Shown piece by piece: positions 29,138 to 53,944 of a stretch of DNA of 64,000 nt; the first letter of the stretch is position 1; each line of letters starts with the position of its first letter. Where the stretch lies: positions 124,001 through 188,000 of the forward strand of contig NZ_FOWC01000013.1 in the NCBI RefSeq assembly GCF_900115345.1, in the 5' to 3' direction. The position numbers were made by a program, and so were the translations under genes. A model generated the notes under the pieces. That model did no database searches and was not told the DNA's origin. It saw nothing but the letters and a program-made list of their open reading frames with translations. Source of the stretch: Amycolatopsis rubida (GTDB lineage Bacteria > Actinomycetota > Actinomycetes > Mycobacteriales > Pseudonocardiaceae).

Positions 29138-29321
29138 GGCTCGTCGCCTGGGGGCGACATTGCCGTGGTCGCTGGCGTGGGGCACCCCGAAGCTTGATTG
29201 TGCTGACGGGCGGCGGGTGCTTGTCAAGGCGGGAAAGATGCCTTGACAAGCACCCGCCGCCCGCAGGGGGGCTTCGTATCGGGGTGCGGGGGTGGTGTGG
29301 GTGCCTCGATGGTTGGGTGCG
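29138..29321. repeat. Structured intergenic repeat element, copy A
   Basis: About 180 bp share strong similarity with 53772-53944. In order: a small hairpin GTCGCC-tggg-GGCGAC; GGCACCCCGAAGCTTGA; a 23-bp perfect stem (29208-29230 with 29240-29262) with loop gggaaagat; then GGCTTCG-ATCGGGGTGC, which can pair back with GCACCCCGA to enclose the central hairpin. Compared with copy B, the outer half of the main stem has different bases on both arms that still pair. It sits upstream of the kinase operon where a response regulator would be expected. Confidence 0.85.
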
Positions 29322-29396
29322 TCGGGCTGCGGTGGGTGATGGGTGTGGGCGGGGGTTCGCACGTGGAGCGTGCAGGGGGCTGGTGGCGGTGGGGGG

Positions 29397-29451: not shown

Positions 29452-30300
29452 TCAGCCCAGTGAGCGTGCGGCGGCGGTTGCTTGTCCGGCGTAGGACCGT
29501 CCGAACAGGACTGTGTGCACCAGAAGCGGGAAAAGCTGGTGCAGTGCGATCCGCTCCCGGTAACCGTCGGCCAGTGGCGCGACCTCGTCGTAGGCGGCCA
29601 TGATCCGTTCTAACTGCGGGCAGCCGAATAGGTGCAGCATCGCGAGATCGGTCTCCCGGTGTCCGCCGTGCGCGGCGGGGTCGATCAGCACCGCTCCGCC
29701 GGAGTCCCACAGGACATTGCCGCTCCACAAATCACCGTGCAGCCGGGCAGGCGGTTCCGCTGGGCCAGTCACCGACGGGATTCGCGTGCAGGCTCGCTCG
29801 AAGACCGCCGGGTCGAGGATCTCGGAGGCCATCCGTACGTAGGGGAGGATTCGGTACTCCGCGTACCACTCTGGCCACGACTCGCCCGGGGCATTGCGCA
29901 TCGGCGCGGTGCCGATCCAGGCGTCGGTCAAGCCGTCCGGGGGAGGCGCACCGAACGCTGGGGCTCCGGCCGCGTGCAACCGCGCAAGGTTTCGGCCGAA
30001 CTCCTCCGCGTGTGCCGGGGTGCTCTCAGCCACCCGGTCCAGCACCAGCCACGTGTCGTCCGCGCCGTGCACCCGGGGGATCCGTACTGCGTCCGCCTCG
30101 GCGAGCCAGCGCAGTCCGGCCGCCTCGGCTCGGGTCGCGCCGGGAGCGTGGCCGCGTTTCACCACCGTCTCGAACCGGTGGGCGCCATCGGTTAACGCGA
30201 TCTCACTCAGGGCGCCTGAAGCGCCGTGGGAGACCGTCTCGCACCCGGTGAGCCGCGCCGCCGCAGCGGCCGGACCTTCGTTCTGCTGCCCGGAAACCAC
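29452..30300 (-). CDS. Fructosamine kinase/aminoglycoside phosphotransferase-like protein
   Basis: A 282-residue kinase-fold protein. The catalytic loop LHGDLWSGNVLW (about residues 189-200) and the metal-binding LIDPAAHGGHRETDLAML fit the fructosamine kinase family, which phosphorylates ketoamines formed by protein glycation. Residues 44-50 (TVVKRGH) would provide the ATP Lys. Translation starts at GTG 30298-30300. It is monocistronic and divergent from tig. Confidence 0.85.
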   Translation of the reverse strand: MVSGQQNEGPAAAAARLTGCETVSHGASGALSEIALTDGAHRFETVVKRGHAPGATRAEAAGLRWLAEADAVRIPRVHGADDTWLVLDRVAESTPAHAEEFGRNLARLHAAGAPAFGAPPPDGLTDAWIGTAPMRNAPGESWPEWYAEYRILPYVRMASEILDPAVFERACTRIPSVTGPAEPPARLHGDLWSGNVLWDSGGAVLIDPAAHGGHRETDLAMLHLFGCPQLERIMAAYDEVAPLADGYRERIALHQLFPLLVHTVLFGRSYAGQATAAARSLG

Positions 30301-51139: not shown

Positions 51140-53767
51140 GTGACCGAGAACGCTCCGCAGCAGAAAACCGACCTTCCGGGTGCCTGGGACCCGGCCGCCG
51201 AGGAAGCCCCGATGTACGACCGCTGGGTAGCGGCCGGGTACTTCACGGCCGACGCTTCGTCGGAGAAGCCGCCGTTCTCGATCGTACTGCCGCCGCCGAA
51301 CGTCACCGGCAGCCTGCACATGGGCCACGCGCTCAACCACACCCTGATGGACGCGATGAGCCGCCGCCGCCGGATGCAGGGCTACGAGGTGCTCTGGCTG
51401 CCGGGCATGGACCACGCGGGCATCGCGACGCAGAACGTCGTCGAGCGCCAGCTGGCCGGCGAGGGCCGGTCGCGCCACGACCTGGGCCGCGAGAAGTTCG
51501 TCGAGCGAGTCTGGGAGTGGAAGGCCGAGTACGGCGGCAAGATCCTCGGCCAGATGAAGCGGCTCGGCGACGGCGTCGACTGGTCGCGCGAGCGCTTCAC
51601 CATGGACGAGAACCTGTCCAAGGCCGTCCAGACGGTGTTCAAGAACTTCTACGAGGCCGGCCTCATCTACCGCGCCGAGCGGATCATCAACTGGTGCCCG
51701 CGCTGCCAGACGGCGCTGTCGGACATCGAGGTCGACCACAGCGACGACGACGGCGAACTCGTGTCGATCCGCTACGGCGACGGCGACGCCTCGATCGTCG
51801 TGGCCACCACCCGCGCGGAGACGATGCTCGGCGACACCGCGGTCGCCGTCCACCCGGACGACGAGCGCTACACGCACCTGGTCGGCACCGAGATCGAGCT
51901 GCCGCTGACCGGCCGGAAGATCCCGGTGGTCGCCGACCGGCACGTCGACCCGGAGTTCGGCACCGGCGCGGTGAAGGTGACCCCGGCGCACGACCCGAAC
52001 GACTTCGAGATCGGCCGCCGTCACGACCTGCCGATGCTGACCGTGATGAACGAGCGCGCCGAGGTCACCGTGCCCGGTCCGTTCGAGGGTCTCGACCGCT
52101 TCGAGGCACGTCCCGCGGTGGTCGCCGCGCTGCGCGAGCAGGGCCGGATCGTCGCGGAGAAGCGGCCGTACGTGCACGCGGTCGGGCACTGCTCCCGCTG
52201 CGACACGGTCGTCGAGCCGCGGCTGTCGCTGCAGTGGTGGGTCAAGGTCGCCGAGCTGGCCCAGGCCGCGGGCGACGCGGTGCGCGACGGGCGGACGAAG
52301 ATCCACCCGGCCGAGCTGGAGAAGCGGTACTTCGACTGGGTCGACAACATGCACGACTGGACGATTTCCCGCCAGCTGTGGTGGGGGCACCGGATCCCGG
52401 TCTGGTACGGGCCCGACGGCGAGGTCGTGTGCGTGGGTCCGGACGAGCAGCCGCCCTCCGGCGAGGGCTGGACGCAGGATCCGGACGTGCTCGACACGTG
52501 GTTCTCGTCGGGGCTGTGGCCGATGTCGACCATGGGGTGGCCCGGGGAGACCGCGGATCTGGCGAAGTTCTATCCGACCAGTGTGCTGTCCACCGGATAC
52601 GACATCCTCTTCTTCTGGGTTGTCCGGATGATGATGTTCGGCGTGCAGGAGATGGACGGGCGGCAGCCCTTCGACCATGTTTACCTGCACGGGCTGATTC
52701 GCGACGCGCACGGCAAGAAGATGTCCAAGTCGCGCGGGAATGTCCTCGATCCGCTGGAGTGGATGGACGCTTACGGGGCGGATGCCACCCGGTTCACGCT
52801 CGCTCGCGGGGCCAACCCGGGTGCGGATATGGCGCTTGCCGACGAATGGGCCGCCGGATCGCGGAATTTCTGCACGAAGCTGTGGAATGCCAGCAAGTTC
52901 GCGATGATGAACGGGGCGACCGCCGAGGGTGCGCTGCCGCCCGCTTCCGAGCTGACCGAGCCGGACCGGTGGATTCTCGGGCGGCTCGCGGCGCTGGTGT
53001 CCGAAGTGGACGGGTTGTTCGAGGACTTCCAGTTCGCCAAGGTCGCCAATGCGCTGTACCAGTTCACCTGGAACGAGTTGTGCGACTGGTACCTGGAGCT
53101 GGCCAAGGTTCAGTTGTACCAAGGGGATTCCGCGCGGGTCGAGGCTACCCGGAAGGTGCTCGGGCAGGTGCTGGACACTGTCCTCCGGTTGCTGCACCCG
53201 TTCGTTCCGTTCGTGACGGAGAAGCTGTGGACGGCGTTGACGGGTGGCGAGTCGCTGGTGATCGCTGCTTGGCCCACGGCGGTCGAGGGGTATGCGGATC
53301 CGGTTGCCGACGCCCGGGTCGCCGACGTGCGGAAGCTGATTACCGAGATCCGGCGGTTCCGGGCCGATCAGGGGTTGAAGCCGGGGCAGAAGGTCGCGGC
53401 CCGGTTGACGGGGGAGGCGTTCCCCGATGGGCATTCTGGCGCGATCCGGTCGCTGGTGCGGCTGACCGAGCCGGAGGACGGGTTCTCGGCCAGTGCTTCC
53501 GTGGAGGTCGCGCTGGCCGGCGGCGTGGTGACGGTGGAGTTGGATACCTCCGGGACCATCGACGTCGCTGCTGAGCGGAAGCGGTTGGAGAAGGACCTCG
53601 GGGCCGCGCGGAAGGAATTGGCGCAGACTGAGGGGAAGCTGGGGAATGAGGCGTTTATCGCCAAGGCTCCGGAGCAGGTGATCGAGAAGATCAAGCTGCG
53701 GCGGGAGACTGCGGTGGCCGATATTGGGCGGATCGAGGCTCGGTTGGGGGCGTTGCCTGCTTCCTGA
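51140..53767 (+). CDS. valS: Valyl-tRNA synthetase
   Basis: An 875-residue class I synthetase. HIGH is present as [16 protein letters not shown] (about residues 53-68), the editing domain spans about 190-350, KMSKS is in [10 protein letters not shown], and a C-terminal coiled-coil ([21 protein letters not shown]) contacts tRNA. GTG at 51140 is preferred: TAGACT (51126-51131) ends 8 nt upstream and no ribosome site exists, so the transcript is likely leaderless. No T-box precedes it. From about 52.5 kb to the end, codon choice changes from C-ending to G/T-ending. Confidence 0.96.
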
Positions 53768-53771
53768 GTGT

Positions 53772-53944
53772 GGCTCGTCGCCTGGGGCGACATCGCTTGG
53801 GGGGCACCCCGAAGCTTGAGTGTGCTGACGGTTCGGGGGTGCTTGTCAAGGCGGGAAAGATGCCTTGACAAGCACCCCCGAACCGCAGGGAGGCTTCGGA
53901 TCGGGGTGCGGGGGAGGGGCTGGGTGCCTCGGCTGTTGGGTGCG
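53772..53944. repeat. Structured intergenic repeat element, copy B
   Basis: Same architecture and orientation as copy A at 29138: GTCGCC...GGCGAC hairpin, GGCACCCCGAAGCTTGA, a 24-bp perfect central stem (53829-53852 with 53862-53885) with the identical loop gggaaagat, and a closing GGCTTCG-ATCGGGGTGC. The inner 15 bases of the stem (GGTGCTTGTCAAGGC) are identical to copy A while the outer 8-9 base pairs differ on both arms and still pair. It starts 5 bp after the valS stop. Confidence 0.85.

Follow-up and report, generated by a model that had tools for sequence, protein, structure and literature searches.

A covarying DNA hairpin family of Pseudonocardiaceae chromosomes and a group of integrative elements, tentatively read as a folded single-strand promoter

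Introduction

Two separate sites in a 64,000-nucleotide stretch of Amycolatopsis rubida DNA (contig NZ_FOWC01000013.1, positions 124,001 to 188,000; the whole stretch is referred to as the window) carry the same hairpin element, copy A at 29138..29321 and copy B at 53772..53944. Their long stems differ in sequence and are still paired, and this raises the question of what keeps such a stem together and what the fold might be for. The original prediction proposed that selection or a copying mechanism keeps the fold and not the sequence, and considered a structured RNA or a non-autonomous mobile element. The analysis described here places the element in a real, large family of DNA hairpins common to chromosomes and to a group of actinomycete integrative and conjugative elements (AICEs), unnamed as far as searched, and points to pairing being kept at the level of DNA rather than RNA.

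Results

Anatomy of copies A and B

The core of the hairpin element is approximately 105-130 bp long. The positions and anatomy first described for the two window sites were confirmed. The parts now distinguished are as follows:

29138..29321, plus strand: copy A, whole element
29143-29158, plus strand: copy A, clade-specific GTCGCC/GGCGAC mini-hairpin
29182-29189, plus strand: copy A, base helix, 5′ strand, GCACCCCG
29197..29202, minus strand: copy A, putative −10-like CACAAT in the predicted internal loop
29207-29220, plus strand: copy A, variable arm, 5′ side
29221..29249, plus strand: copy A, near-invariant tip and loop, TTGTCAAGGC-GGGAAAGAT-GCCTTGACAA (tip arm TTGTCAAGGC, 29221-29230; loop GGGAAAGAT, 29231-29239; tip arm GCCTTGACAA, 29240-29249)
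29222..29227, minus strand: copy A, putative −35-like TTGACA inside the tip
29250-29263, plus strand: copy A, variable arm, 3′ side
29280-29287, plus strand: copy A, base helix, 3′ strand, CGGGGTGC
53772..53944, plus strand: copy B, whole element
53804..53811, plus strand: copy B, base helix, 5′ strand
53819..53824, minus strand: copy B, putative −10-like CACACT
53829..53842, plus strand: copy B, variable arm, 5′ side
53843..53871, plus strand: copy B, near-invariant tip and loop
53872..53885, plus strand: copy B, variable arm, 3′ side
53902..53909, plus strand: copy B, base helix, 3′ strand
53910..53916, plus strand: copy B, GGGGGAG, a strongly leading-strand motif in the sister species G048; copy A is without it

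The GGCTCG start of copy B lies 4 bases past the stop codon (53765-53767) of valS, the valine--tRNA ligase gene. Its variable arms are CGGTTCGGGGGTGC and GCACCCCCGAACCG, and its parts are otherwise as in copy A. When folded as single-stranded DNA (ssDNA), the minus strand of both copies is predicted to form one long hairpin closed by the base helix, with z values of −11.3 for copy B and −11.2 for copy A; 0/200 shuffles were equally stable in each case.

The inner 15 bp had been described as identical in the two copies; the family-wide invariant portion is the 10-bp tip with its loop, not 15 bp. Likewise, the GTCGCC hairpin is present in copies A and B but proved to be an Amycolatopsis-clade extra and not a family-wide feature: it is missing from loci L022, L075 and L093, and none was found in the Umezawaea and Actinokineospora copies among those listed. 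A 3′ flank, GGGTGCCTCGATGGTNGGGTGC, is tandemly repeated behind several copies, for example at 29297-29330 of the window and at L004 and L022.

Stem covariation

Pairing was analyzed in a 50-row alignment drawn from 153 pattern rows. Each left arm is represented once, by a row with complete flanks and a recognised loop; L041 and L085 are not included. The long helix is 98.4% paired in this alignment. Each of its outer 14 pairs shows changes on both sides and occurs as three to five pair types, while 9 of the 10 tip pairs never vary. Double-change cells numbered 248 as against 63.8 in shuffles, and 0/500 shuffles reached 248. Shifting the partner by 1-3 columns reduced pairing from 95.9% to 33-47%. 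Pairing in the base helix is lower, at 88.5%. The proposal that the fold rather than the sequence is kept, by selection or by copying, is strongly supported by these data: covariation, looked for by pair counts against shuffles in this larger alignment, was found at all 14 outer pairs.

Pair types were counted in 240 copies, 7 of 247 having been set aside. The 3360 pairs of the outer 14 bp consisted of 3327 Watson-Crick, 6 G-T, 13 A-C and 14 other pairs; 217/240 copies were perfectly paired in this region and 78 distinct left arms were present. In an RNA helix made from the transcribed strand G-U would be expected above A-C. Neither is clearly favoured, and G-T is no commoner than A-C, which disfavours the structured RNA considered earlier and points to pairing being maintained in DNA. 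One copy has arms of two different types and is likely to be a recombination footprint. Template switching is a published route to the making and mending of perfect hairpins (PMC8794818).

Family size and distribution

The exact tip hairpin was found at 41 places in the source genome (9.87 Mb, 45 contigs), giving a family of at least 41 copies there, with more in relatives; the element is thus not limited to the two copies seen initially. When copy A was compared with the source genome, 40/40 scored candidates were strong matches (40 scored of 107). Across 80 genomes of the genus the copy number ranges from 0 to 86 by the tip pattern, which is present in 36/80, the source included; nine others have at least 28 copies. 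With ≤ 3 mismatches, there are 87 copies in the sister species G048 and 78 in G071. The exact 29-mer of tip and loop occurs in at least 110 stretches of named genomes, and its hosts among the matches listed are six Amycolatopsis species, Umezawaea endophytica and Actinokineospora sp. NBRC 105648.

A covariance model made from 50 distinct elements matched 79/297 genomes of the family Pseudonocardiaceae, in 15/46 genera. Outside the family there were matches in 2/393 other genomes sampled from the class; one of them (G425, 68.9 bits) looks real and the other (G707, 46.6 bits) is doubtful. Plasmids (blastn, two queries), phages (blastn, one query) and viral contigs (one pattern) gave no match at the settings used.

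No Rfam 15 family reached its gathering score in the window. The best Rfam match was g2, a mycobacterial small RNA, at 29205-29262 of the minus strand (35.1 bits against a gathering score of 70). The similarity was not seen at four other loci and was treated as chance. No named family had been known for the element at the outset, and likewise none was found in Rfam 15 or in the literature searched.

Conserved sites with changing stems

The valS 3′ site occupied by copy B carries the element in 7/8 of the nearest species, and in the eighth the contig ends. In the other 22 species no element was found within the first 330 nt after the stop codon. The stem at this site is GGTTCGGGGG in four species, GGTCTTGGGG with a 10-nt loop in one and GGCGCGGGGG in two. 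Where the element is absent (L149-L170), the site often has other GC-rich hairpins, such as GGCGGCACTTTC..GAAAGTGCCGCC or AAGCCCGGTGCTCC..GGAGTGCCGGGCTT, which are perhaps clade-specific repeat families.

For 24 of 31 source-genome copies a G048 copy was found at the same place and in the same orientation (the shared site L004 rests on a 134-bp match). The types at shared sites were compared by left arm, which differs at 16/24 sites, by one base in 5 and by more in 11. Genome G000 has 9 arm pairs among 31 copies and G048 has 18 among 86; one arm pair is common to both. We interpret the combination of conserved sites and differing stems as concerted evolution.

Chromosomal placement and strand polarity

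Multicopy elements are located mostly at the 3′ ends of genes and mostly on the leading strand. The context counts are approximate, being based on our own codon-model caller of open reading frames (ORFs), which misses genes (e.g. 29452-30300); the G048 windows were those centred on elements plus 9 extra ones. The 87 copies of G048 comprise 36 convergent, 20 tandem-sense, 24 tandem-antisense and 7 divergent contexts. Among background gaps of at least 150 bp 131/423 are divergent, compared with 7/87 at elements (Fisher p 2.5e-6). The corresponding four counts are 8, 3, 6 and 0 in Umezawaea (17 copies), 4, 1, 4 and 0 in A. jejuensis (9) and 0, 2, 2 and 1 in A. orientalis (5).

GC skew places the replichore borders of G048 near 4.15 and 8.43 Mb. 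The leading strand is the printed strand of the element in 66/87 copies (p 1.4e-6 versus one half), and the bias is also above the 58% of genes that are leading (p 7e-4). The element is antisense to the gene in 13/14 cases beside lagging tandem genes versus 11/30 beside leading ones (p 8e-4), and the polarity is therefore not explained by gene direction. Tandem-antisense copies taken alone have no strand bias (13/24). The polarity is seen again in G071, where 54/63 places fit two arcs (63 of 78 places were used) and 0/2000 shuffles were as good. Orientation agrees with the local GC skew in 86/105 copies listed from named species (p 2e-11).

Some of the elements carry GGGGGAG. Among 9806 octamers counted in G048 outside elements, CGGGGGAG has the strongest polarity (146:5), and the density of GGGGGAG rises towards the terminus (Spearman −0.62). 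The motif is present in 63/66 leading versus 13/21 lagging G048 elements (p 3.6e-4). In eight other species sets it was found in 38/105 named elements listed: jejuensis 0/14, orientalis 0/7, Actinokineospora 0/2, Umezawaea 6/20, circi 3/13, echigonensis 8/18, nivea 15/23 and dendrobii 6/8. As a cause of polarity GGGGGAG fits G048 but is contradicted by these species, whose elements are skew-oriented far more often than they carry it, and it was rejected as the general cause.

An octamer with leading-strand bias and a rise towards the terminus, as in architecture imparting sequences (AIMS), was thus found in G048 only, and has no bearing on the hairpin itself. GGGGGAG may be considered a candidate FtsK-orienting or AIMS motif of Amycolatopsis. 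It resembles AIMS and FtsK-orienting polar sequences (KOPS), as presented in PMC5993296, in these two features; AIMS are octamers, whereas the hairpin element contains such an octamer, and does so in some copies and species only. The window contains 11 GGGGGAG on the plus strand and 0 on the minus strand, at the following positions:

349, 5238, 16989, 18978, 25033, 29939, 38206, 38831, 44053, 53410 and 53910, plus strand: GGGGGAG

A second sequence class inside AICEs

The second class comprises 29 loci with an imperfect GGCCGG-type sequence, read in 12-16 kb windows. These loci were grouped after their sequences had been seen: 9/20 came from one fetch (11 fell outside the group) and the 20 others were chosen best hits from 20 of 35 genomes. 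Many genomes have few covariance-model hits, and those of the second-class loci have 1 to 3 each. Low-scoring hits were read for the fetched loci only, L337, L347, L350 and L352 being the least typical.

At least one AICE marker was found in 26/29 second-class loci and at least two in 18/29. The marker queries came from four of the 29 genomes; when these are left out, 22/25 loci have at least one marker. By comparison, a marker was found in 1/11 other loci of the same fetch, in 0/80 G048 windows and in 0/110 shorter named multicopy loci. RepSA itself was matched in 5 of the marker-bearing windows. RepSA scores in the family form two groups (E ~1e-100 and ~1e-150), and the RepSA of the G014 AICE belongs to the lower-scoring one.

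Four AICEs were delimited by extension. Their gene order is integrase, excisionase-like gene, repSA, traB, small genes, regulators, cargo, element and attR. Direct repeats of at least 40 bp bound all four at both ends, and three of them lie at tRNA genes. The distance from the attR repeat to the start of the element is 253-297 bp, and the repSA sense strand is the minus strand of the element in every case. Pfam analysis identified RepSA (PF20199, 342 bits) and REP_ORF2-G2P in the G014 AICE, FtsK/TraB (PF01580) in G205 and HTH_17 in G122. The integrase was identified in G117 and G205, just under the cut-off in G122, and only as an 89-aa fragment in G014.

A sub-class of the AICE type (L334, L336, L338, L340, L341, L344, L346, L348 and L358) has a longer apical loop in which an extra small hairpin (GCGC..GCGCGATCTACGAC) replaces GGGAAAGCGT.

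The cargo genes next to the element in AICEs vary greatly and are often defence-like (L311-L317, L319, L326, L359-L378). The nearest 5′ gene is divergent from the element in 24/26 scanned loci (L361, L368 and L377 were left out), and by our own reading it has a defence-type domain or PADLOC match in 15/26, PADLOC having been run on ten proteins only. Matches were to GmrSD_N (2), TIR, ThsB-TIR, C5 methylase, HEPN ApeA, LmuA, type IIG, AAA_21 (2), Fic, UG22 reverse transcriptase and ABC-3C CTD10 (2). A match to Abi_alpha, below its cut-off, adjoins a Schlafen AlbA_2 gene.

Discussion

A folded single-strand promoter or origin

What could require a stem of fixed length and perfect pairing but of no particular sequence? 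We tentatively propose that the element is a folded single-strand promoter or single-strand origin (sso), which would resemble an sso in its working rather than being a proven one; the proposal is drawn from sequence and fold prediction. The element would be active when its minus strand, as printed, is single-stranded, and that strand would fold into a pre-opened promoter. The invariant tip would give a duplex −35 box (TTGACA), the variable stem would be a mere duplex spacer of fixed length, the internal loop would carry a −10-like nAnnnT box that is unpaired from the start, and the duplex downstream would be the base helix. A primer for second-strand synthesis would be synthesised at this site by host RNA polymerase, in the manner of the F plasmid Frpo or an sso. 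In the four AICEs the active strand would be the repSA sense strand, which is expected from related replicons to be the one displaced by rolling-circle replication. The chromosomal copies would be scattered relatives of the AICE element, kept alike through gene conversion or template switching, and in most of them the orientation would keep the active strand from serving as lagging-strand template.

The minus strand has TTGACA in 50/50 distinct chromosomal types, with nAnnnT following at a distance of 19 nt in 37 types, of 18 nt in 11 and at neither distance in 2. The AICE class has mostly TTGACG, followed by nAnnnT at 19 nt in 22/29. In G048 the −35/−10 pattern is present in 87/87 copies, in 86 of them at 19 nt, and the box opens a predicted bubble of ~12 nt (mean unpaired 0.82-0.97 over 11 positions). 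A promoter of this type would explain the free stem sequence, the fixed stem length, the fixed tip and the intolerance of G-U.

In Frpo the −35 box is in duplex and the −10 box is at an unpaired region. The element would be like Frpo and other single-strand initiation (ssi) sites in its putative duplex −35, unpaired −10 and fixed spacing; it is unlike them in belonging to other bacteria and having another sequence. Frpo-type promoters are described, in PMC7736820 and PMC10085688, as read in single strands only and as priming the second strand. For ICEBs1 sso1 (PMC4595007) and pIJ101 sti (PMC4170104) sso activity is reported to be orientation-specific and found only when the site is single-stranded. 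The element shares with the sso described there that it is non-coding and strongly folded, that structure is conserved over sequence, and that it lies within rolling-circle-initiator elements (RepSA in the G014 AICE; markers in 26/29 loci). It differs in having chromosomal copies in dozens, and the likeness is one of description. AICE transfer by TraB is described as double-stranded in PMC4170104, so that the use of the element would lie in replication, not in entry.

Several observations weigh against this proposal. RepSA is present in 235/297 genomes of the family and the element in 79/297; most RepSA genomes have no hit, and many RepSA elements must therefore be without this hairpin. A 19-nt spacer is long, the usual −35/−10 spacer being 17, and the −10-like boxes begin with C or G. 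When folded, the plus strand of copy B is nearly as stable as its minus strand (z −10.2 versus −11.3, 0/200 shuffles being equally stable), and folding therefore does not indicate which strand is active. In Umezawaea (16 copies) and in the AICE class (18 short-loop copies of 29) the predicted bubble is less distinct. Finally, the −35/−10 figures are raw counts from related copies, which are not independent.

A more specific history, in which a conjugative-element single-strand origin or promoter was domesticated into ~40-90 chromosomal single-strand-sensing sites, appears unlikely. Such sites would be silent as duplex and be read by RNA polymerase in single-stranded gaps. For the most part they would avoid the lagging-strand template, and gene conversion would keep them alike, the stem drifting but remaining paired.

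Other explanations

The element could instead be a selfish repeat, similar to repetitive extragenic palindromes (REPs) or miniature inverted-repeat transposable elements (MITEs), although we find this doubtful. An ssDNA hairpin would be inserted behind genes by a transposase or recombinase, and the fold would serve mobilisation and not the host. The high copy number, uneven among related genomes (0 to 86 in the 80 of the genus), and the position behind stop codons are in agreement with this, as is leading-strand polarity regardless of gene direction, which is expected of insertion via ssDNA. However, a REP-associated tyrosine transposase (RAYT), for which a search had been suggested, was not detected: Y1_Tnp (PF01797) was found in 0/9 genomes, control genomes being positive, and RAYT/Y1 mobilisation was rejected. 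The gaps examined next to G048 copies contained no repeated gene, and an autonomous parent gene was also rejected, one recurring 37-aa match being all that was found among gap ORFs examined. The 24/31 source copies sharing their place with G048 argue that recent movement is limited, and no empty site or target duplication could be shown. The element resembles REPs, their mosaic arrays (BIMEs) and the associated RAYT system in being a dispersed extragenic palindrome mostly at gene 3′ ends; it is unlike them in its greater length, its invariant tip with a freely covarying stem, its AICE relatives and the absence of a detected Y1. The original suggestion of a non-autonomous mobile element thus gains from the AICE link (markers in 26/29 loci) and loses from the missing RAYT-like mobiliser.

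It is quite improbable that the hairpin is a transcription terminator or an insulating hairpin of the 3′ untranslated region. The scarcity of divergent contexts in G048 (7/87 versus 131/423) would fit, together with sense stop codons 85-105 bp before the tip in 29/56 G048 cases and the other hairpins at the valS site in many species without the element. However, TTTT follows the stem in only 13/50 distinct types (counted by eye), so that the T-run of a terminator is mostly lacking. A terminator does not need a sequence-invariant tip and loop, and G-U is tolerated no better than A-C. In AICEs, moreover, the element does not follow a gene; it is flanked by attR and by a cargo gene that is mostly divergent.

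There is little probability that the element is a loading or orienting site for an FtsK-family translocase, either chromosomal FtsK or AICE TraB with clt-like chromosomal sites. TraB of these AICEs does belong to the FtsK family (PF01580). The polarity of CGGGGGAG in G048 (146:5), with its core rising to the terminus, and the presence of GGGGGAG in 63/66 leading versus 13/21 lagging elements are of the kind that such a site would show. On the other hand, GGGGGAG is in only 38/105 named elements listed although 86/105 are GC-skew-oriented, and a duplex-binding motor leaves the compensating stem unexplained. GACCCGGA, a TraB recognition repeat that may not be that of the TraB proteins here, is about equally common on the two strands in G048 (165:149). 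Binding of TraB to clt-like sites on the chromosome has been reported (PMC3218068, PMC4170104), which also favours this explanation.

A regulatory leader or duplex promoter of AICE cargo genes, dispersed later, is very improbable, for although the minus-strand −35/−10 pair points at the divergent 5′ gene in 24/26 AICE-class loci, only 31/87 G048 copies have such a gene on that side and most point at no gene start.

Significance

If the folded single-strand promoter is real, one fold would explain a stem that accepts any sequence but no mismatch, as the spacer of a promoter working only in ssDNA. The family would then provide a cis element for a group of AICEs with variable, often defence-like cargo, would clearly exemplify concerted evolution among hairpins whose sites stay fixed, and would connect conjugative elements with repeats scattered over the chromosome. 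Should the function be wrong, there still remains a repeat family without a name in Rfam 15 or the literature searched. Its covariation and strand polarity are very clear, and it cautions that the maintenance of covariation can take place at the DNA level.
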